From assembly GCA_015231825.1 (NCBI GenBank), contig JADGAV010000001.1, forward strand, positions 378,248 to 442,247: a stretch of DNA of 64,000 nucleotides. Direction: 5' to 3'. The position numbers and the translations under genes were made by a program. Under the pieces are notes generated by a model. The model ran no database searches. It worked only from the letters and a program-made list of their open reading frames with translations, and was not told the origin of the DNA. Of the stretch, positions 36,033-49,719 are shown piece after piece (position 1 is the stretch's first letter; each line of letters begins with the position of its first letter). This DNA is from SAR324 cluster bacterium (GTDB taxonomy: Bacteria > SAR324 > NAC60-12).

Positions 36033-36170
36033 AAATGCGTTCTGTCTGGACTTTGCGGAATTCAAGAAAGGTGAGGAGTTAAAATGTTGTTGCTTTCTCT
36101 AGTGGCTTCCAGTCTGAACCGAAAATTGATCTTCCTGTCATATTTGCTTTCCCTGAAAAGAAAGGCGTCA

Positions 36171-36989
36171 ATGCCAAATCGAATGTTTGTTTCAAGAATG
36201 CTGTTGTTTTCATTAGGAACATTGATTTTTCTATGTGGATGTGGAGGAAGTAGCGGAAGCAGTGCATCCGAATCAAAAGACTCTGGAATCGTGCCTGCAT
36301 CCGTGGGAATGTTTTTAATCAAATCAGCCGCCTTCCCGATGGGGGATATTGCAGGAGACAGCGGAAATGAAGATGAAAGCCCAAGTCATTTAGTCAGCGT
36401 CAGTGATTTTTATATATCAACCCATGAAGTGACCTTGGGGGAGTTTCGGAACTATGTCCCGGATTACCACAATCATTTGAGTACCGGCTGCAATTTGGAA
36501 AATTGTCCGGTAACCAATGTTTCGTGGGATGAAGCGCAGGGTTATATCAGTTGGCTGAACAGCAGCGCCCCATTAAGCAGCGGTATCACTTATCGTATGT
36601 GTACAGAAGCAGAATGGGAGTACGCAGCCCGAGCGGGAACATCGAGCAAATGGTCATGTGGAGCGGATGCTTCATGTCTGGAGAATGTTTCCTGGTTCCT
36701 TGAAAATTCTGCTGGAAGGGCACATCAAGTCAAACAAAAAAATGCCAATGCGCTCGGCCTTTACGACATGCATGGAAATTTACAGGAGTGGGTTGAGGAC
36801 TGGTACGATCCGGACTACTATGCGACAAGCCCAATAGACAACCCAACGGGGCCGGAATCTGGAACGCTTCGCTCTGTACGTGGTGGATATTTTGGCAATG
36901 ATGCCAGTCAGGTTCGTTCGTCAGAAAGGCAGGGAGTCGCTCAAAACCTTCACTCTTTCTTTATCGGAATCCGGCTCTGTGCACAATGA
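36171..36989 (+). CDS. SUMF1/FGE-fold lipoprotein
   Basis: About 272 residues with a lipoprotein signal (MLLFSLGTLIFLCGCGG; Cys within the lipobox) and a formylglycine-generating-enzyme (SUMF1) domain. Landmarks are FYISTHEVTLGEF, VTNVSWDEAQGYISWLN, YRMCTEAEWEYAARAGT and LQEWVEDWYDPDYYA. The C-terminal RSVRGGYFGNDASQVRSSER lacks the catalytic cysteine pair of true FGE, so sulfatase activation is unlikely. It probably has a structural or binding role in the envelope. The frame is open from 36084, but the ATG at 36171 begins the signal peptide. Confidence 0.82.
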   Translation: MPNRMFVSRMLLFSLGTLIFLCGCGGSSGSSASESKDSGIVPASVGMFLIKSAAFPMGDIAGDSGNEDESPSHLVSVSDFYISTHEVTLGEFRNYVPDYHNHLSTGCNLENCPVTNVSWDEAQGYISWLNSSAPLSSGITYRMCTEAEWEYAARAGTSSKWSCGADASCLENVSWFLENSAGRAHQVKQKNANALGLYDMHGNLQEWVEDWYDPDYYATSPIDNPTGPESGTLRSVRGGYFGNDASQVRSSERQGVAQNLHSFFIGIRLCAQ

Positions 36990-39476: not shown

Positions 39477-40547
39477 TTACCAATTGTATTGAACTCCTGC
39501 TTTCCAGTGGATTTCAGTTTCGTCACGCGATCCTTCCTCCAACTGACTGCTTTTCCCAGATTCGAATGAGAACCAGTACTTTTGTTTTTCAGTGGGCTCA
39601 TAGGTGGCTTCGCCGAGAATCGTCATTGCAGTGGAGTCCGAGAGCAAAAGGACTTGGTAGGTTAAATCAAAACTTGTGGAAAAACCGGAAAAGAATTCAT
39701 GTTCTACACTTCCGTGAAGCGCATGATTGAGAAGGTCAGGAACGATAATCGGAGCCTGGGGATGTTCGACAACAGCTCGTTCGATACTATAACCAAGCCC
39801 ATATCGGGTTCCGATGAACCAGCTTCGAGTCAAAACGAGTTCCTGGGTCTGTTCCAGGGTGTAAAAAGAAGGGATCAAAGCGAGTTGGTATCGGGAGGCA
39901 GCGGTTTCCGAATGGAGACGCCAACGACCTTCTCTCCATATTCGAGTGAGTGACAAAATGCCGCGCTGAATAGATCCCTCCAGAACTCGGCTGGTGATGG
40001 TTGCTTTCCAGGGGATTTGATAGGCTCCCTGAATATCCCAGTGCCAAGGTTCCCAAAAACTGGAAAAGCGAACTTCTGCGCCGGTTATCGGTTGATGTTG
40101 GACCAACCAGAATTCCATTTCAGAGGCATTTTCTGTTTCCTTCTTCACTCCGACCCGTACAGTATTTTTATTTCCGTCAGGATTGACCACGGTTTGAGCC
40201 TGTTCTTCAGCGGTAAGTTGGTTTTGATTTGAAAGGAGTCCGGTGACCAGTGCTTTTTTCTGATAAGACCAATGTTCGGCCTCTGCAAAATAAAAAAGCT
40301 GTGAGGAGTTCAAGAACAGCATTCTGGCATGCACAAGTCTCTCACTGTCCTCGTTGGAACGCTCGCGGTAATCATGAAAAACTTCAATATAAGGAGTCCG
40401 CTCCCGCATGAATCGGATGTAATCTTTAAGTACTTCGGGGCGATCGTTCCAGATTCCATGATCTCTTGAATTCACAAAGCTGGATTCTTGAGCACATGTC
40501 CAGATCGGAATGAATAGCAACAGAATCATGAAGTAGAAGTGTTTCAT
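39477..40547 (-). CDS. Predicted outer-membrane beta-barrel protein paired with the TPR protein
   Basis: About 356 residues with a clear signal peptide (MKHFYFMILLLFIPIWTCAQ). The rest is rich in alternating aromatic and polar residues in short strands (ISLTRIWREGRWRLHSETAA is similar in style), and the chain ends in GVQYNW, a terminal aromatic typical of barrel proteins. Its ATG overlaps the stop of the TPR gene (ATGA), so translation is coupled and an equimolar complex is likely. PelB of Pseudomonas joins TPR repeats and a barrel in one chain, and here the two parts seem to be separate genes. It would form an export pore for a polysaccharide. This is inference from architecture. Confidence 0.7.
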   Translation of the reverse strand: MKHFYFMILLLFIPIWTCAQESSFVNSRDHGIWNDRPEVLKDYIRFMRERTPYIEVFHDYRERSNEDSERLVHARMLFLNSSQLFYFAEAEHWSYQKKALVTGLLSNQNQLTAEEQAQTVVNPDGNKNTVRVGVKKETENASEMEFWLVQHQPITGAEVRFSSFWEPWHWDIQGAYQIPWKATITSRVLEGSIQRGILSLTRIWREGRWRLHSETAASRYQLALIPSFYTLEQTQELVLTRSWFIGTRYGLGYSIERAVVEHPQAPIIVPDLLNHALHGSVEHEFFSGFSTSFDLTYQVLLLSDSTAMTILGEATYEPTEKQKYWFSFESGKSSQLEEGSRDETEIHWKAGVQYNW

Positions 40548-43500
40548 TGCCGTATTTTCTCCTCGGCAATTCCCCGAGCCTGTTGAAAGGCCTTTTCTGC
40601 CAAATTGTAGTTGCGGATTGCCAAATACGAATATGCGAGATCGATCCATGCTTGTTCGTTTCGGGGGGAACTCTGCACCCAGTTTTTAAGGGTTTGGATG
40701 GCCTCGGTTTTTCGATCCAGCGCTTTTTGTGCGGAAGATTTAAAAAGGAAGAATTGCTCCTTGTCCAGAGTTTCTGAAAGAGGATTTTTTAGTTCTGTTA
40801 AAAGGGTTTCGTATTCTTTAATTTGAAACAAGAGTCCTGTAAATTGCTCAAATACTTGAATGTCACCGGAGGTTTCTTTTAAAATTTGGCGATAGATTTT
40901 GACTGCTTTCTTAGGGTTCCCGGTATAGGCCAGTCCAGAAGCAAAGAGTTGTTTTTCTATGAGTTGCAGATCCTTTTTGCTTTGGAAGCGATTGACCAGT
41001 TTTTCGAAAAACAGGCTTTGCTTTTCTATCAAACCGCTGACAGGATAGAGAAGTGCTATGCGGTGAAGCACCTCTAAATCTTCTGGTTCCAGCCTAAGAT
41101 AACGTTCCATAACCGCAATGGCCTCCGGGTATTTTTCATGATCTGCCAAAAATCGTCCGAAATTTTTCAAAATCTCCTGAGCATCGGGTTCCCATTCGAG
41201 CAGACGGTGGTAAGAATTGAGAGCAAGAGTCGGATCTTTCCTGTTTTCTGCAAGTTCAGCAATAATTTTGATTTCTTCGAAACTTCTTGCCTTTTTTGCC
41301 AGTTTCGTCAGTTCTCGGTTTGCCAATTTTGTTTTTCTGGCTCGGAAAAGGACATCAATATAGTGAGAATGATTGTCAAAATCGGGTCGGACACGAAACA
41401 ACTCTTCCGAATATCGAAGTTCCAGTGACAGCTCTTTCATGACTCCAAACAAAGCCACCAGGGCTGTCAGATCTTCTAAATCATGCTGGCGCTGATAACG
41501 TTTCTGAAGATTTTCGGCCACCAGGGGTAAGTCTTCGAGTGCATATCCGATATCCAATGCCAGCTGCTCAAATTCATTGTCCCATTCGTCTTTGGGCGTT
41601 TCCAGCAATAGGCGCTTGGCTTCTATTTCTGATCGATTGGCCAGCAGTGCCCAGATCAGAGGTTTACGAATAGCGGGAAGCGGATTCCTTTCAAAAAGTT
41701 GAGTGAGAAAGGAAGAAGCGCGGTCGTATTTCTGATGAAAACGATAGTAATTGATAGCCCGATTCAACCAGTCAGGATTGTCCGGAACTCTTTGAAGGAT
41801 TTTTTCTATGGTGCTGATTTGTCCTTGCTGGTTTTGATCTGATGCAAATATTTGATAGAGCTGCTCCAGCAAATCGATGGTCTCTCCCTGTTCTTTTATT
41901 TCCTGGGAGACAATGGTCAGCGCTTCGTCTGTTTGTCCTCTCATGATCGCAAAGGCCAAGCGTTTTTTCTTGAACGGAGGAAATGGGTTTTGGGACCAAC
42001 GAGTCAAAATATCTTCAGCCCTTTCTAAATCTCCTCCAAAAACGGCAAGATCGAAATAAGTGTTCAAATTCTCCTGAGGGAGTTCTTGAAGTGGAACCTT
42101 GGGAAGTGTTGCAACTGCCGGGTCCAGCTGGGTGGTCCAGAGGTAGAGGCTCAATGCCTGCATTTGTTCTGTTGACGTCAGGTCATAACTTTTTTGAAGA
42201 TTCTGCATGATTGGGACTGCCTGCAGCAGTTTCCCCGCTCTCAGGTAAAACTGAACAAGTTCCCATTTTCCGGCTTTAAGGTCGGGATTCAAAGAAGCTG
42301 CCAATTGAAAATATTCTTCGGCTTTTTCATTTTGATTTTGGCTTTCGTAAGATTGTGCAAGCTCTCGAGTCCATTCTAAATTCTTGGCAGTTCTCACAAA
42401 AATACGAAGCCCTTTTTCCTGTTCTTCATCGAGAGGCGATAGCCGTGAAAATAAAAGTACTTTCTCCCAGTAGACTTGCGATGGAGTTTTTCCCCATTCT
42501 TTGAGGATTTTTTTTGACAATGGAATGTTTTTTCCAAAAAAGGCAATATCGAAGCAAACAGGAAGCTTTTCCTGGGAGATTCTTTCTGGAGGAATTGCAG
42601 AAAGTGTTTTTAAAGCCTCCTCACTTCGGCTGGTCCAGATGAAGAGGTCCAGTGCTTCCAGTTGTTCTTGAAATGTCAGTTTGAACTGGCTTTGAACGGT
42701 TATCATTACCGGAACCGCTTTGTTCAGTTGACTGTTCCGAATGTAGAATTTTGCCAAGGCCAGCAAACTTTCTTTTTTATTTTGGCTATCGGCAGTCATC
42801 TGGTAAAAATATTCTGCATCGGTCAGTTGATTGGCCTTTTCATAGTATTGTGCCAACTGCCGATACCATAGCGAGTTTCCAGATTTCTCCACTTTTCTAC
42901 GTAAAAGTTTTTCAAATTCTGGCTCCAGAGGGGTCTGCAACGCGAGATCCAGCATTTTCTGCCAATATTGCTGAGAAGGAGATTTACTCCATTCCTTCAG
43001 CAAGCTATGAGCCATTGGGTAGTCCCTCGCAAAGAAGGCTAGATCGAAGTAATTGGGGATTTTAGATTGAGGAAGGTTTTCCAGAGGAATTTGGGAGAGA
43101 GTTTTAAGTGCCAGTTTGTTTTGATTTGTCCAGAGGAATAAATCCAGACTGTCCAGTTTTTCCTGCAGAGAAAATGTGTACTGCTGTTGAGCGCGGATCA
43201 CTGCCGGTACTGCTTTATCCAGCAAGCTATTGCGAATATAGAAATTCGCCAAAGCCAGTTGATTCGCCTTGCCATCGTTAAACGCAAGCGCCATTTTGTA
43301 AAAATGCTCTGCATCGGAAAGGCGTTTGTTGTTTTCATAGTATCCCGCCAGTTCTTGTATCCATTGAAGATTTTTTGATTCCTCAACGACCGTCCTCAGA
43401 GCATTTTCAAGCGACGGGTCTAAATTTGACTGTGAAGAAAATGCGAGTACTTTCTGCCAATAGTGAGTTGATGGGTTCTTTCCCCATTCGTTGAGGATTG

Positions 43501-45868
43501 TTTCGGCCAGTGGATAATTTCCCCCGAAAAAGGCCAGATCGAAATAAATTGGCAATTTGGAGAGGGGAAGTTCTGAAGTTGGAATAGTTTTGAGAGTCGA
43601 CAAAGCATGCGAGGTCTGACTGGTCCAACTGTATAAATCCAACGCATTCAGCTTCTCTTGAACGGATAACTGATTTTGCTGCTGTACGGACCGCATCACG
43701 GGGACGGCTTTTTCTAAAAAATTGTTGCGGATATAAAACCCGGCTAGATCCAGTTGTGAAGTTTTAAGATTCTTGCTGAGAATAATGGCCTGTTTGTAAA
43801 GTTGCTCCGCTTCTGACATACGTTTTGTGTTTTCAAAATATTGAGCCAGCTGCTGAACAGATTTCAGATTTTTTGAATTTTCGACAAACTCGAGAAGTCC
43901 TGTCTCGAGATCGGGGGAGAGAGGAACCTGCGAGGCAAATTCCAACACTTTTTCCCAATAAGGAGAGTGCGGTTTTTTTCCCCACTCGATCAATATCACT
44001 CGTGCCAGAGAAAACTTTTTTTCATAGAATGCCAAATTAAAAAAATCAGGAAGACTCGATTTTGGCAATTCCTCAGGAGGAAGCTCGGAGAGTGTTTCCA
44101 ATGCCCATTCGCTTTGCCTGGAAAAACGAAAAATCTGAATGGCTTCTAATTTTTCTTCGATGCTCAATGGATGACCTTGTAGCGCAGCATCACTTTGAAT
44201 TTTTCTCATGATCGGTGATGCTTTGGGGGCCATGTTGTTGCGGATGTAGAACCGGACTAAGTTGAAATTTCCCTCTTTTTGATTCGTATGTTGGGAAATT
44301 GCCTTTTGATACCACTCTTCTGCGCTGCTTAAATTTTGTCTGTTTTCAAAATGTTGTGCCAGCAGAATCATCCATTCCAATTGGGGACTCATCTGGATGG
44401 CTCGTTTTAATGCGTTTTCTCCTTCCGGAAAATTCTGTTTCCAAAAATAAAGCTCTGCCAGCTCCTTCCAGAGAGGGCCTTGATTGTAGCGTTCAGCAAT
44501 TTCCCGACGAAAAAGATTCAGGGCTTCCTGATCTCTATTTTTAAAAAAATGCAGGTTGATGAGCTCTCTCCAGGTTTCTATGGTATTGGCTTTTCTTGCA
44601 TAAAGGATATGTGCTTCCAACCCCTTTTCCGTCTGCTCATGCTCAAAATAATGGTTGCCCAACTCTTTCCAGAAGAAAACAGGCAAGCGCCCATTTTGTA
44701 GAATTGTCCTGACAATTTGGGGTTGCCTCGTTTCAAAAGCAAGGGCGGCAAGTTGCTCCCAATCAGCTTGTTTCGATTTCCCTGCCTCAGCTAATTTTTC
44801 CAGGATCCCTTGTAATTTCTGAGGATTTCGGCTGAAAAGAGCGTAGTCCAAATCAATCCGGGCAAAATTTTCGGGCGGATTCTTTGACAAGCGATCAAAT
44901 AATGCATTGACCGTTTCCGGGACTTCGGCGCGGATTGCGAGGTAAAAGTAAAAAGTCAGCCTATCTTCCGGAATGGAGGAAAGAGGCAGCGAAGGCAAGA
45001 GAGCCGCTGATTTATCATTCAATTTCAGGAAATCATAACTTTGCAATGCCAGCAGTTTTTCGCTGTCTGACCATTCAGATTTTTGTTCAAAAAACCTGAC
45101 TGCACGAAGATATGTCGATACGGCAATTTTATTTCTGTTTTGAGAAAGATAAAATTGGCCCAATCGAACCAGATTCTTCAAAGAAAGCTCCAGTGCCACT
45201 GCCTGGAGCAGCGCTTCTTCTGCGAGTTTTGCATTCTTTTTCCACAGGTACGCGTCGGATAATTCTTCCCAGAGTTCTGCCCGATTAAACTGCTGTGCAC
45301 GTTGTTGATAAACAGCAAAAGCCTGATCTTCTTGATTCAAACGAAAATAAATTTGGGCCAGGGGTTCATATAGTTCGTATTGTTCAGGAAACTGCTGAAT
45401 TCCTTTCTGCAATTGCTGGATGGCTGCCTCATCATTTTTGAGCCATTGGTGAAGTTGAGCGATTTCTTCCCGCAGTTTGGGATTCTCGGGAGTTCGTTTC
45501 TGCTGGATCAACAGCATTCGGAGGAGATTGGGTTGGTCACGCTTTTCGCGGTAACTTTCTATGATTTTTCTGAAATAACTGTCGGGTAGATTATGATTGT
45601 TGTAGAGTGCTTCAACTTTTTCAGTTTCTCCTGCAGAAAGATAAGTCTGAGCCAGCTGCTCAATTCGTTCGGGCGACGAGGCGAGCATTCCCTCATCAAG
45701 CATTTTTACGAGGAGTGATGAGGCTTCAGCATAGTTTTTTTCTTTTTCTTGAATGAATAACTGATCTTTGATTTGAGGATAGGACCAATAGGTCGCCAAC
45801 CCCCCCCAGACCCCAGTTATAATAACTGCAGTCATCACATCCCACCTTTTAAAATCAATTTTTTTCAT
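40544..45868 (-). CDS. Giant membrane-anchored TPR protein (PelB-like scaffold)
   Basis: A 1774-residue protein with one N-terminal membrane helix (VMTAVIITGVWGGLATYW, about 11-28); the rest is almost entirely TPR-type helical repeats. The N-terminal third has ordinary TPRs (WEELSDAYLWKKNAKLAEEA). The middle holds about five tandem copies of a 166-residue module with recurring FYIRN, YFDLAFF and KVL landmarks, and the C-terminus returns to standard TPRs. It should span the periplasm from the inner membrane, as the TPR part of PelB does, recruiting a deacetylase or hydrolase and guiding polymer to the outer membrane. It is followed by the barrel gene with a 4-bp overlap. The length is exceptional. 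Confidence 0.8.
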   Translation of the reverse strand: MKKIDFKRWDVMTAVIITGVWGGLATYWSYPQIKDQLFIQEKEKNYAEASSLLVKMLDEGMLASSPERIEQLAQTYLSAGETEKVEALYNNHNLPDSYFRKIIESYREKRDQPNLLRMLLIQQKRTPENPKLREEIAQLHQWLKNDEAAIQQLQKGIQQFPEQYELYEPLAQIYFRLNQEDQAFAVYQQRAQQFNRAELWEELSDAYLWKKNAKLAEEALLQAVALELSLKNLVRLGQFYLSQNRNKIAVSTYLRAVRFFEQKSEWSDSEKLLALQSYDFLKLNDKSAALLPSLPLSSIPEDRLTFYFYLAIRAEVPETVNALFDRLSKNPPENFARIDLDYALFSRNPQKLQGILEKLAEAGKSKQADWEQLAALAFETRQPQIVRTILQNGRLPVFFWKELGNHYFEHEQTEKGLEAHILYARKANTIETWRELINLHFFKNRDQEALNLFRREIAERYNQGPLWKELAELYFWKQNFPEGENALKRAIQMSPQLEWMILLAQHFENRQNLSSAEEWYQKAISQHTNQKEGNFNLVRFYIRNNMAPKASPIMRKIQSDAALQGHPLSIEEKLEAIQIFRFSRQSEWALETLSELPPEELPKSSLPDFFNLAFYEKKFSLARVILIEWGKKPHSPYWEKVLEFASQVPLSPDLETGLLEFVENSKNLKSVQQLAQYFENTKRMSEAEQLYKQAIILSKNLKTSQLDLAGFYIRNNFLEKAVPVMRSVQQQNQLSVQEKLNALDLYSWTSQTSHALSTLKTIPTSELPLSKLPIYFDLAFFGGNYPLAETILNEWGKNPSTHYWQKVLAFSSQSNLDPSLENALRTVVEESKNLQWIQELAGYYENNKRLSDAEHFYKMALAFNDGKANQLALANFYIRNSLLDKAVPAVIRAQQQYTFSLQEKLDSLDLFLWTNQNKLALKTLSQIPLENLPQSKIPNYFDLAFFARDYPMAHSLLKEWSKSPSQQYWQKMLDLALQTPLEPEFEKLLRRKVEKSGNSLWYRQLAQYYEKANQLTDAEYFYQMTADSQNKKESLLALAKFYIRNSQLNKAVPVMITVQSQFKLTFQEQLEALDLFIWTSRSEEALKTLSAIPPERISQEKLPVCFDIAFFGKNIPLSKKILKEWGKTPSQVYWEKVLLFSRLSPLDEEQEKGLRIFVRTAKNLEWTRELAQSYESQNQNEKAEEYFQLAASLNPDLKAGKWELVQFYLRAGKLLQAVPIMQNLQKSYDLTSTEQMQALSLYLWTTQLDPAVATLPKVPLQELPQENLNTYFDLAVFGGDLERAEDILTRWSQNPFPPFKKKRLAFAIMRGQTDEALTIVSQEIKEQGETIDLLEQLYQIFASDQNQQGQISTIEKILQRVPDNPDWLNRAINYYRFHQKYDRASSFLTQLFERNPLPAIRKPLIWALLANRSEIEAKRLLLETPKDEWDNEFEQLALDIGYALEDLPLVAENLQKRYQRQHDLEDLTALVALFGVMKELSLELRYSEELFRVRPDFDNHSHYIDVLFRARKTKLANRELTKLAKKARSFEEIKIIAELAENRKDPTLALNSYHRLLEWEPDAQEILKNFGRFLADHEKYPEAIAVMERYLRLEPEDLEVLHRIALLYPVSGLIEKQSLFFEKLVNRFQSKKDLQLIEKQLFASGLAYTGNPKKAVKIYRQILKETSGDIQVFEQFTGLLFQIKEYETLLTELKNPLSETLDKEQFFLFKSSAQKALDRKTEAIQTLKNWVQSSPRNEQAWIDLAYSYLAIRNYNLAEKAFQQARGIAEEKIRQ
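41970..44200 (-). repeat. Five tandem ~498-bp coding repeats inside the TPR gene
   Basis: The segment encoding LPDFFNLAF/LPIYFDLAF-type landmarks recurs at about 44065, 43572, 43068, 42570 and 42075, a spacing of roughly 498 bp (166 residues). Each unit runs through an EWGK-YW motif, FYIRN and KAVPV motifs. The copies have diverged but are still recognisable in DNA, which suggests growth by unequal recombination. Confidence 0.7.
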
Positions 45869-45925
45869 CGGTTTGGAAATTCGGTTTTGCCGGCTGAAGG
45901 TCTTGGCGGGTAATTTTTTTCTTTT

Positions 45926-46651
45926 CTACAGTGAGCGAGTTTTTGTTTTTTTCAGAAGCTGTCCGAAACCCTGAAGGACGTCCTGAATACCATGCTGGCG
46001 AAGGGAGTACCAATAGGTTGCGGCATTGACCGAAACAACAGGCCTCCCCAGTTTTGCTTCCAATTCATCAATCATACCAACAATCCCCAATGCTCCTCCA
46101 AGATGTAGAAAGGTGTCGACATCATCGTGGTCGATTTCCTGAAAAGCCGCAAGGATCTGTTCAACAGTAATATGGATGATTTCTTCAGATTTTTTGACTT
46201 TGAGCCAGGTGGTATAGGGAACCTCGAAACCAAGACTTTCATAATATGCTTGAGCACTTTTGGACTGGACTTCCGACATTGGAGAAAGAATCGCAATTCG
46301 TTTTGCGTTGATGCTGTGCAGTGCAGCAGGGCAGGCATCAGTTGCTGTGATGATTGGGGTCCCCTGAGCTTTTTCCTCCAATTGTCCTCGATAGATCTGC
46401 TGTCTTTCAAGGGACCAATTCTGCATTTCAATAGAGTTTCCGCAAATGATCAAATCGGGCCAGCAAAGCAAGGACCCGGGTACAGATTGGAGAACGGCTT
46501 CCGCGACTCTGCTGTGATCTGAGAGGTCAAAGCGATAGATTTGATTGCTGATCCCCGGAGGGCGCATGAGTTCATATTCAGGCTGCATGTTTGCATTTTG
46601 CAGAGGGATTAAAATACTAAATACGCCCCGAGGGCCAAAGCGGTCGCTCAT
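45926..46651 (-). CDS. Maleate isomerase / arylmalonate decarboxylase-fold protein
   Basis: About 241 residues of the Asp/Glu racemase superfamily in its maleate isomerase-AMDase branch. The N-terminal FGPRGVFSILIPLQNANMQP is the family opening. WPDLIICGNS holds one catalytic-type cysteine, and TDACPAAL with KRIAILSPMSEVQ follows. At the second catalytic site the sequence is FLHLGGALGIVG, so the usual cysteine is missing. Single-cysteine members such as AMDase decarboxylate rather than racemise, but there the other cysteine is the one kept. The substrate is unknown. The start at 46651 has GGAG 8 bases upstream. It sits in the operon 57 bp before the TPR gene. Confidence 0.78.
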   Translation of the reverse strand: MSDRFGPRGVFSILIPLQNANMQPEYELMRPPGISNQIYRFDLSDHSRVAEAVLQSVPGSLLCWPDLIICGNSIEMQNWSLERQQIYRGQLEEKAQGTPIITATDACPAALHSINAKRIAILSPMSEVQSKSAQAYYESLGFEVPYTTWLKVKKSEEIIHITVEQILAAFQEIDHDDVDTFLHLGGALGIVGMIDELEAKLGRPVVSVNAATYWYSLRQHGIQDVLQGFGQLLKKTKTRSL

Positions 46652-46756
46652 TGTTGTCTCCAAAAGTGAATGAATTCGAGGACATGTAAGAAAGTAAAAA
46701 CTTAATTGGGTGATTTGCCACTATAATAGTGCCGGAATTTTGCCAGAGTTTTGCTT

Positions 46757-47611
46757 CTATTGCGGCTTGGAAGAACGGGCGCATCGGAAGCCGATATCCT
46801 GAACAGCATAATGGGGCTTGGCATAATCTCGAGACGTAGCCTGCAAACGTTCTATTCCATCATTCCAGCCTCCTCCCCGAATCACTTTACCGATTCCGGA
46901 CCGGGGTCCTGACGGGTTTTGATAGGGAGCTATTGAATAGTATTTCGCATGGTACCAATCCTGAACCCATTCCCAAACGTTGCCCTGCAGATGGAAGATT
47001 CCCCTGGTATTTGGAGTTTTACTCTGTACCGGATGAGTTGTTTGCAAAGAGTTGAAATAAAACCAGGATTTTGATTTCATGGACTTGACAGAAATTTTGG
47101 AATTTGCAGAAGCAGAAACATGGACTGACCGTTCCCATTCCGCTTCCGTGGGAAGCCTTTTTCCGTGTGCACGGCAATAGGCATCAGCGGCAAACCAGGA
47201 GACATATACTACCGGGAAAGACTCTCCTGAAGAGGCCTGAGGAATTATTGAATCCCAGTGTCGGAGGTAGTTCCGGTCAGCCTTTCCTTGTTTTCCACGG
47301 GCATAAATGATATTCCATTCTGGATTTTTATTTACAAATGCATGAAATTCTTGGTTGCTGACTTCATGAGAATCCATGTAATATGCAGGCAGGGAAACAT
47401 CATGAATTGGAGTTTCGGGAATCGGTTTGAACAGTTTTTTTGTATAGGAATCCCCTTCTTCTTGCGGAGCAACTTTTGCTGATTCGACCTCCGTTCGCCC
47501 CATTCGGAAATCACCTGGGGGAATCAAAATCATTTTATCCGGAAAGTCACTGCCTTCGCTAGAGAGTGTCAAACAGATCCAGATAAAAGCTGTCAAAAGA
47601 TAAGGTTTCAT
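46757..47611 (-). CDS. Exported SUMF1/FGE-fold protein
   Basis: About 284 residues with a signal peptide (MKPYLLTAFIWICLTLSSEG) and a SUMF1 domain. The order is MILIPPGDFRMGRTEVES, YYMDSHEVSNQEF, PVVYVSWFAADAYC, RLPTEAEWERS, GNVWEWVQDWYHAKYYS and VIRGGGWNDGIERLQATSRD, ending in GFRCARS. The catalytic cysteines of formylglycine-generating enzyme are not in place, so a binding or structural role is more likely. It is the first gene of the minus-strand operon that goes on to the racemase-fold, TPR and barrel genes, and it diverges from the PelA-like deacetylase. Related non-catalytic FGE-fold proteins occur in exopolysaccharide loci, which fits this setting. Confidence 0.82.
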   Translation of the reverse strand: MKPYLLTAFIWICLTLSSEGSDFPDKMILIPPGDFRMGRTEVESAKVAPQEEGDSYTKKLFKPIPETPIHDVSLPAYYMDSHEVSNQEFHAFVNKNPEWNIIYARGKQGKADRNYLRHWDSIIPQASSGESFPVVYVSWFAADAYCRAHGKRLPTEAEWERSVHVSASANSKISVKSMKSKSWFYFNSLQTTHPVQSKTPNTRGIFHLQGNVWEWVQDWYHAKYYSIAPYQNPSGPRSGIGKVIRGGGWNDGIERLQATSRDYAKPHYAVQDIGFRCARSSKPQ

Positions 47612-47832
47612 GGAACACAATTGATGGTTTTGGTGACATGAGCATATCTTTAGAAATGTGCCTCGCTTTGATGGATGAGTCAAGACCTATGAGGGCGCGT
47701 GGCGTTTCTTTTGAGCAGGGTGCCTTCTCTCTGGTCCGGTTGACAGCATTGGGAAGTAAAACCTGGTATGCTTTCAAAGAAAAACATCGTACTTTGGAAA
47801 TATTTCTATTCCTATTATTGCAGCTGCTTTTT

Positions 47833-49719
47833 ATGAAAATTAAAATTGTGTGCGGAATTGGTCAGAAAAAAGTAGGGACAAAGAAGGGCACGGTGGGAGG
47901 AGTTTTAATACTTGTCAGCTTTTTACTGATGCCGTTTTCAGATCTCTCGGCCGACTCCTCAATCCCCCGCTATGTTTTGGGGATTTACGACAGTCAGCAG
48001 CAAAAGCCTCGTCTGCTTTCTGACAATGAAGGAGTTGAGGAATTTGATTCTCATGATGGAGAGGTAAATCCGATCCAGCAAAATCTGGCGGTAGTGCTCA
48101 ATCATATGGGCTATCTTGTAGAACAGCTGGATATACGCAATCATCCTCTACCGGATGCTGAAACTATGAAACGCTATGCCATGGTGATCAGCTGGTTTAG
48201 ATTCGATATAACCGTACCAAATCCGGAAAAATACGTCCCCTGGGTAGAATTGCAAGTCAAAGAGGGTCGCAAATTTCTCGTTTTGGAATATCCCGGAATC
48301 GAAGACAATCTCCGAAATTTGTTATCGCTCAAAAAAAGACTTTATCGAGCAATTGGTCTCGAATTTGGAAATAGCTTTCGCTCAAAAACCAATCGGATTC
48401 AGTTGGTGAACAAAATCTCTGAAATGGTCGAATTTGAACATTTGCTGAGACCTCCGTTTCCCTGGTATGACTTGTTTCGCCCCTTAAATGTGAACATTAA
48501 GTCATATTTAACAGTAAAGTACTGGCTCGATAAAAAAAGCGAGAGCATCATGGTGATGACCAGTCCCCAGGGAGGGATGGTTGCTCCTGGTTATTTACTT
48601 TTCAGTGAAGCAGCACCGCCTTTCAGAAAAAAATGGAAAATCAATCCTTTTCTTTTGATGAAGTCCCTTCTCAAATCCAAATTTCCAATACCCGACGTGA
48701 CCACTATCAAGGGAAAACGTATTTTCTATTCGCATATCGACGGTGACGGCTTTCGAAGTATTTCATCGGTTCAATATAAAAAGATCGCTGCTGAAGTGAT
48801 TTTAGAGAAAATCATTCAGAAATTCCCCGGGATTCCTATTGGTGTTTCAGTGGTTGTGGGTGATATTGATCCTGACTGGTGGGGAAATCCGAAATTCATT
48901 GAAATTGCCCGCGAGATTTTTTCTCAACCCAATGTGGAAGCGGCAACCCATACCTATACACATCCCTATCAATGGCAGCGCTGGAACCGCAGTTCTGCAT
49001 ACGCCCCACTGGGCGCATTTCGATATGAACGGGAAATTGATGAATCGATTGAATGGATTGAAGAGCATTTGCTTCCTTCAGATAAACAGGTTAAATTGGT
49101 CTATTGGTCCGGAGACACCACTCCTCCGGAAGAAGCACTGGTTCGCGTTGAGAATTTCGGAAAGGATCATTTGAATGGCGGCGATTCGAGGAAAGACAAT
49201 GACTATCCCTCCTACACCACTGTGGCCCCCCTGATGCGACCGGCTGGAAAAAGGTGGCAGATATTTACCAGTGCCTCCAATGAAAATCTCTACACGGCTT
49301 TGTGGACTGCAAAATTTCACGGCTTCCGCAACGTGATTCAAACTTTTGAAAACACAAACTCGCCGATTCGTCTTGCTCCCGTCAATGTCTATTACCACTT
49401 CTATATAGCGGAAAAAGTCGCATCAATGCAGTCATTGGAACAAGTTTTGGACTGGGTTCAGCAGCAGGATCTATACATGATATATCCTTCAGAATATGTA
49501 CAACTTGTTCGAGGTTTTATCTCAACAGAACTATATGAACTCGAGCCCGCTCTTTTTGAAATTAGAAACCGGGGGACACTCCAGACTTTTCGCCTGGATT
49601 TGGGCAAAGTCGATCTTGAACGCTCACAGGGAGTTCGGGCTATTCATCAGGTCAATGGAAATGAATATATCGATTTAGATCCGGAAGTGGAAAAACCTCG
49701 GATTGCGATAATGCGGTAG
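47833..49719 (+). CDS. PelA-like exported polysaccharide deacetylase
   Basis: About 628 residues. An export signal (GGVLILVSFLLMPFSDLSA) is followed by a flavodoxin/Rossmann-like domain (about 40-270; RYVLGIYDSQQQ, YAMVISWFRFDI) and then a deacetylase core. The core has FYSHIDGDGFRS (about 297; metal and catalytic Asp) and an HxxxH metal motif in ATHTYTHPYQ (about 371). These match the CE18-type deacetylase of PelA, which acts on the Pel polymer in the periplasm. The PelA glycoside-hydrolase domain is missing. The frame is open from 47638, but the ATG at 47833 begins the signal sequence. It diverges from the operon with the PelB-like TPR and barrel genes, which supports a joint export role. 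Confidence 0.75.
   Translation: MKIKIVCGIGQKKVGTKKGTVGGVLILVSFLLMPFSDLSADSSIPRYVLGIYDSQQQKPRLLSDNEGVEEFDSHDGEVNPIQQNLAVVLNHMGYLVEQLDIRNHPLPDAETMKRYAMVISWFRFDITVPNPEKYVPWVELQVKEGRKFLVLEYPGIEDNLRNLLSLKKRLYRAIGLEFGNSFRSKTNRIQLVNKISEMVEFEHLLRPPFPWYDLFRPLNVNIKSYLTVKYWLDKKSESIMVMTSPQGGMVAPGYLLFSEAAPPFRKKWKINPFLLMKSLLKSKFPIPDVTTIKGKRIFYSHIDGDGFRSISSVQYKKIAAEVILEKIIQKFPGIPIGVSVVVGDIDPDWWGNPKFIEIAREIFSQPNVEAATHTYTHPYQWQRWNRSSAYAPLGAFRYEREIDESIEWIEEHLLPSDKQVKLVYWSGDTTPPEEALVRVENFGKDHLNGGDSRKDNDYPSYTTVAPLMRPAGKRWQIFTSASNENLYTALWTAKFHGFRNVIQTFENTNSPIRLAPVNVYYHFYIAEKVASMQSLEQVLDWVQQQDLYMIYPSEYVQLVRGFISTELYELEPALFEIRNRGTLQTFRLDLGKVDLERSQGVRAIHQVNGNEYIDLDPEVEKPRIAIMR

Follow-up and report, generated by a model that had tools for sequence, protein, structure and literature searches.

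A row of genes in the genome of a SAR324 cluster bacterium (NAC60-12) very probably encodes one half of a Pel-type exopolysaccharide system, that of the periplasm and outer membrane; the synthesis genes lie elsewhere in the same genome. The window, by which we mean the whole stretch of DNA that was analysed, is 64,000 nt long (GCA_015231825.1, contig JADGAV010000001.1, 378,248-442,247 of the forward strand) and covers 378-442 kb of what we call contig C19; the genes at issue lie well inside that contig. A PelA-type deacetylase gene on the plus strand (47638..49719) diverges from a minus-strand row that encodes an exported SUMF1/FGE-fold protein (46757..47611, counted from the likely ATG), an AMDase/EutA-like protein (45926..46663), a tetratricopeptide repeat (TPR) protein of 1774 aa (40544..45868) and an exported protein of 356 aa (39477..40547). 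Each of these reading frames is intact and full length, and the stop codon of the TPR gene overlaps the ATG of the last gene by 4 nt, as ATGA. All genes that the original prediction had placed here are present where it put them. Homology, profile comparisons, the predicted fold and an exception-free co-occurrence with PelG now back its reading of them as PelA-like and split-PelB components; its view that the remaining operon genes are absent, and its placing of the deacetylase in CE18, did not survive. An Rfam scan of the window gave no match, a promoter scan gave no signal above chance, and a literature search on SAR324 and Pel yielded nothing on point. The module is real, conserved and probably functional, and it is not an orphan but a variant of a biofilm system already known.

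When the deacetylase is compared with the sequences in the PDB, there is a single significant match, to PelA (9cgy, E 1.6e-62). By sequence the protein is a PelA homologue with the complete PelA active site, and it would be expected to be enzymatically active: residues H366, D368, D370, H438, H442, E549 and H587 (P0005 numbering) correspond to H526, D528, D530, H600, H604, E723 and H761 of PaPelA, the published active-site set (PMC12022489). This mapping was made through the 9cgy alignment, where shifting the numbering by 36 recovers each of the four residues that the PelA paper reports as mutated, and the seven residues are invariant across ten deacetylase sequences of the SAR324 class. PelA is the founder of family CE21 (PMC12022489), and since it is both the closest and the only significant solved relative, the CE18 label is wrong and is replaced here by CE21; the sequence search thus puts the protein inside the PelA family, as proposed, but not inside CE18. 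Homologues suggest a start near 47833. An N-terminal mixed alpha/beta domain is present, and the alignment to PelA ends about 90 residues short of the C-terminus of the 900-residue PelA chain. Pfam returned nothing significant for the deacetylase and no glycoside hydrolase match was found in the chain, in keeping with the earlier statement that such a domain is lacking; a separate hydrolase gene is found at a second locus.

That second locus bears directly on the supposed absence of the remaining operon. Inspection of the ORFs at 34-56 kb of the window revealed no gene recognisable as pelC, D, E, F or G, so that for the window the claim stands, but for the genome it does not: the proposed search outside the window for PelF, PelG and a GGDEF-type PelD found all three on contig C63 of the same genome, in a contiguous row of genes for a GH114/TM1410-type hydrolase of the PelA kind (L002:7459-8754, plus strand), a PelD-like protein, a PelE-like protein, PelF and PelG, which rules out the reading of the window genes as an orphan module. 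PelG is identified at E 7.7e-116 and PelF by an NCBIfam equivalog at 488.7 bits against a cut-off of 100, the PelD-like protein has GAF and degenerate GGDEF matches, fits the make-up of a PelD-type receptor (TM, GAF, GGDEF) and, when aligned with annotated PelD, shows the RxxD I-site conserved, and the PelE-like protein, which contains TPRs, adjoins pelF. The row lies near 45-52 kb of a 235-kb contig and therefore not at a contig edge. The hydrolase has a signal-like N-terminus, and pelD starts 4 nt past its stop codon. It is circularly permuted, with residues 134-262 corresponding to the second half and residues 303-423 to the first half of the hydrolases of sister genomes, and its TM1410 match shows the same swap in order; a hydrolase permuted in this way might be inactive.

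The location of the window genes and pelDEFG on different contigs, together with a rearranged hydrolase at the second locus, could be taken to mean that a pel operon was broken by rearrangement and that the window genes are its decaying leftovers. We consider such a relic very unlikely, as the reading frames are undamaged, the catalytic residues are conserved and the ATGA coupling is kept. Moreover, the TPR gene and its overlapping partner are unlinked from pelDEFG in the related genome G003 too, and G046, another member of the class, also has its deacetylase and pelDEFG on separate long contigs.

The two overlapping genes at the far end of the row match their earlier description as an anchored TPR protein followed by a separate exported protein with barrel features. 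TPR family matches of the 1774-aa protein reach E 2e-32 (Pfam), and its N-terminal hydrophobic segment looks like an uncleaved membrane helix. Because TPR homology is generic, its assignment as the scaffold half of PelB rests on gene pairing, membrane anchor and context. A supra-repeat of about 165 aa recurs in several copies, at about 50% identity, over TPR residues of about 562-1190 (window 42300-44190). The scaffold differs in length between genomes, the TPR proteins of relatives having 968 to 1445 aa, and its length probably changes by expansion of this supra-repeat. In three sister genomes (G003, G004 and G010) the two genes again form a pair that overlaps by 4 nt; the pair is therefore not a product of chance, and the separation of the PelB parts into two genes extends beyond the present genome. 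Translational coupling would cause the two halves to be made together, after which they would have to meet non-covalently.

The 356-aa protein has no direct sequence match in Pfam, NCBIfam or the PDB, for which reason fold and profile-profile comparison were used. AlphaFold2, run with a 15-row alignment (pLDDT 79.4, pTM 0.75), predicts 16 strands after one helix, the latter being a candidate stalk helix at residues 37-49 behind a signal peptide. Among PDB folds the best match to the model is PelB in the PelBC complex (9h80, E 6e-15, TM 0.69/0.64), followed by BcsC (E 2e-10), and PelB itself has been described as a 16-stranded barrel with a stalk helix (PMC12141448). A profile of six SAR324 barrels was compared with one of 29 barrels from pel operons (Azospirillum, Lambdaproteobacteria and others); the match, at 96.2%, spans 301 columns and extends to the C-terminus. 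The 29-sequence profile in turn matched the barrels of classical PelB at 94.6%, and neither reversed nor rotated controls reached 1%. Direct comparison of the SAR324 profile with classical PelB barrels was not significant, so the link to classical PelB runs through intermediate families and the fold; profile comparison with single fused PelB-like proteins likewise gave nothing significant. The prediction and the comparisons support the view that the 356-aa protein is the outer-membrane barrel half of a split PelB.

A different polysaccharide system, for example a PNAG- or cellulose-like exporter of the TPR-plus-barrel kind that borrowed a PelA-type deacetylase, would account for the resemblance of the barrel fold to BcsC and the PgaA-type secretin as well as to PelB, and for the weak matches of the TPR protein to PgaA and BcsC profiles. 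This is even less probable than the relic, since PelB heads the fold matches, the profile of the barrel leads to pel-operon barrels, and within the family the barrel occurs only in genomes that bear pelG.

The distribution of these genes among SAR324 cluster bacteria ties the components of the Pel-type system together. Across the 58 genomes searched (the present one plus relatives), deacetylase and PelG are confined to the same genomes. Within the family to which the window belongs, PelG, the deacetylase and the barrel are found in the same five members, exactly those that are pel-bearing, and the barrel in 0/26 of the others; random placement would produce this co-occurrence of barrel and pel with a probability of about 6e-6, a figure that ignores phylogeny and genome incompleteness. 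Synteny in related genomes, the comparison of which had been suggested at the outset, conserves the TPR-barrel pair and joins pelDEFG to the deacetylase: in both G003 and G004 a single locus comprises the deacetylase, the SUMF1-like gene, the hydrolase and pelDEFG, and in G010 these genes are split over short contigs. The position of the TPR-barrel pair relative to the deacetylase is variable, being a few kilobases off in G004 and on another contig in both G003 and G010. This last arrangement might suggest that only the deacetylase is a pel gene and that the TPR protein and barrel serve something else, but chance neighbourhood of this kind is the least probable of the readings, given that within the family barrel and pelG are always found together, the pair is near the deacetylase in G000 and G004, a barrel homologue adjoins the SUMF1-like gene in G005, and in many phyla a barrel of related profile is encoded between a TPR gene and pelD.

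Two of the relatives differ in further respects. In G046 the deacetylase is followed by a gene for a 1127-aa TPR protein (L035:12614-15997) with a strand-like end, possibly a fused PelB, the C-terminus of which matches neither barrel profile. G005 (L033, L043, L044 and L139) has two pel systems of different types and, on a third contig, an additional TPR-barrel pair; its barrel homologue beside the SUMF1-like gene has no adjoining TPR partner.

The two accessory genes were confirmed by Pfam (FGE-sulfatase, E 1.3e-46; Amdase, E 5.8e-13), and only one of them proved to belong to the system. Among the relatives searched, orthologues of the SUMF1-like protein, at 49-60% identity, are confined to the family's five pel-bearing genomes, where the gene lies beside the deacetylase in every case; the next matches are paralogues elsewhere, 30-42% identical. 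Judged by sequence and synteny, the protein is a real, family-specific partner of the pel genes. It belongs to the fold family of the formylglycine-generating enzyme (FGE; Pfam FGE-sulfatase, PDB FGE 6muj), and all five orthologues have other residues (WNDG/WYDG/WNDS) at both positions of the FGE catalytic cysteine pair. As the pair is absent, the protein is probably not a formylglycine-generating enzyme, and a role in sulfatase activation is unsupported; most likely it would be a conserved non-FGE accessory, a structural or polymer-binding partner in the periplasm. A second SUMF1-fold gene, lipoprotein-like and about 32% identical to the pel-linked one, lies at 36084-36989 on the plus strand and shows no sign of membership in the pel system. 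The AMDase-like protein has distant paralogues only, located elsewhere and many of them in genomes that lack pel, and a search for an orthologue in other pel loci found none, which rules it out as a pel component; it is probably a bystander in the gene row.

The lipoprotein PelC was sought in the genome with two profiles, of which the 4-sequence one gave a best E of 0.13 and the 14-sequence one gave nothing at E<=1. Many pel loci of other phyla are likewise without a PelC match, so the absence may be real or may reflect divergence beyond reach. In P. aeruginosa the PelC ring requires the stalk and the last TPRs of PelB (PMC12141448). The 356-aa barrel protein has the stalk helix and no TPR, which, together with the lack of a convincing PelC, fits a PelC-less exporter, short of proof.

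The system would work as follows. By homology, PelD, E, F and G would polymerise an N-acetylgalactosamine-type polymer and move the chain across the inner membrane under c-di-GMP control, and the exported deacetylase would strip acetyl groups by the metal-dependent mechanism of PelA. The product that defines a Pel system is an alpha-1,4-GalNAc polymer, partially deacetylated. The inner-membrane-anchored TPR protein would guide the chain through the periplasm, the separate barrel, with its predicted 16 strands, would let it out through the outer membrane, and the hydrolase from the second locus would trim it, with the SUMF1-fold protein in a structural or polymer-binding periplasmic role. A more specific and distinctly speculative proposal, which we hold to be improbable as a whole, is that of a PelC-less Pel exporter in which the catalytically dead SUMF1-fold protein is structural, acting in scaffold-barrel assembly or as a periplasmic collar, and scaffold length is tuned by the copy number of the 165-residue supra-repeat.

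These findings extend Pel-type matrix export to a SAR324 family and indicate that a Pel system can function, or at any rate survive, when its modules are separated. They also raise the question of how a separate trans-periplasmic scaffold finds its outer-membrane barrel without an evident PelC ring, the SUMF1-fold protein being a concrete candidate for bringing the two together. Counting pel systems needs surveys based on the deacetylase, not on full-length PelA or PelB.

The split as such is not unusual and is already known, since PelB fission in aquatic thermophiles was published in 2020 (PMC7112194) and a deacetylase-only PelA has been described in Gram-positives (PMC7112168). Indeed, loci of this deacetylase clade commonly carry PelA and PelB in split form. 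The deacetylase family was used to retrieve 80 named loci, and an automatic count over these put the hydrolase in a gene of its own in 56 and the barrel in 39, with TPR and barrel fused in 5 and PelC detected in 26; these figures are rough lower bounds, given the shortness of many contigs and a crude gene caller. In five pel loci from Acidobacteriota MAGs (L055, L066, L068, L085 and L113), hydrolase and deacetylase have a gene each and TPR and barrel are fused into one protein of 1285-1465 aa; PelA is thus split there and PelB is not, and the two splits appear to be independent traits. What is distinctive in the present system is its dispersal in the genome, the apparent absence of PelC, the SUMF1-like partner, the expandable scaffold and the circularly permuted hydrolase at the second locus.

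Compared with pelABCDEFG of P. aeruginosa, the SAR324 system shares the PelA active site, the inner-membrane-anchored TPR scaffold, the 16-stranded barrel (here predicted), a PelD with an RxxD I-site, and PelE, PelF and PelG. It differs in that PelA is split into deacetylase and hydrolase and PelB into TPR protein and barrel, the genes occupy two distant loci on separate contigs, no PelC is recognisable, and there is an extra SUMF1-fold protein, which has the fold of the FGE/SUMF1 family but not its cysteine pair; unlike the full four-domain PelA, the deacetylase chain has no N-terminal GH166-type hydrolase domain. Separate hydrolase, deacetylase, TPR and barrel genes are shared with the split pel operons of Azospirillum, Thalassospira, Magnetococcales, Nitrospinota and Lambdaproteobacteria and with the pelB fission of aquatic thermophiles (PMC7112194). 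The split systems of other taxa, however, form one operon, often with PelC, and their barrel proteins are about 500-580 aa long, with an N-terminal region and TPRs, whereas the barrel protein here has 356 aa and only a stalk helix. The Gram-positive pelDEA_DAFG cluster (PMC7112168) similarly combines a deacetylase-only PelA with a separate gene for a PelA-type hydrolase, but its core as reported contains no outer-membrane exporter genes, in contrast to the SAR324 system with its TPR protein and barrel.
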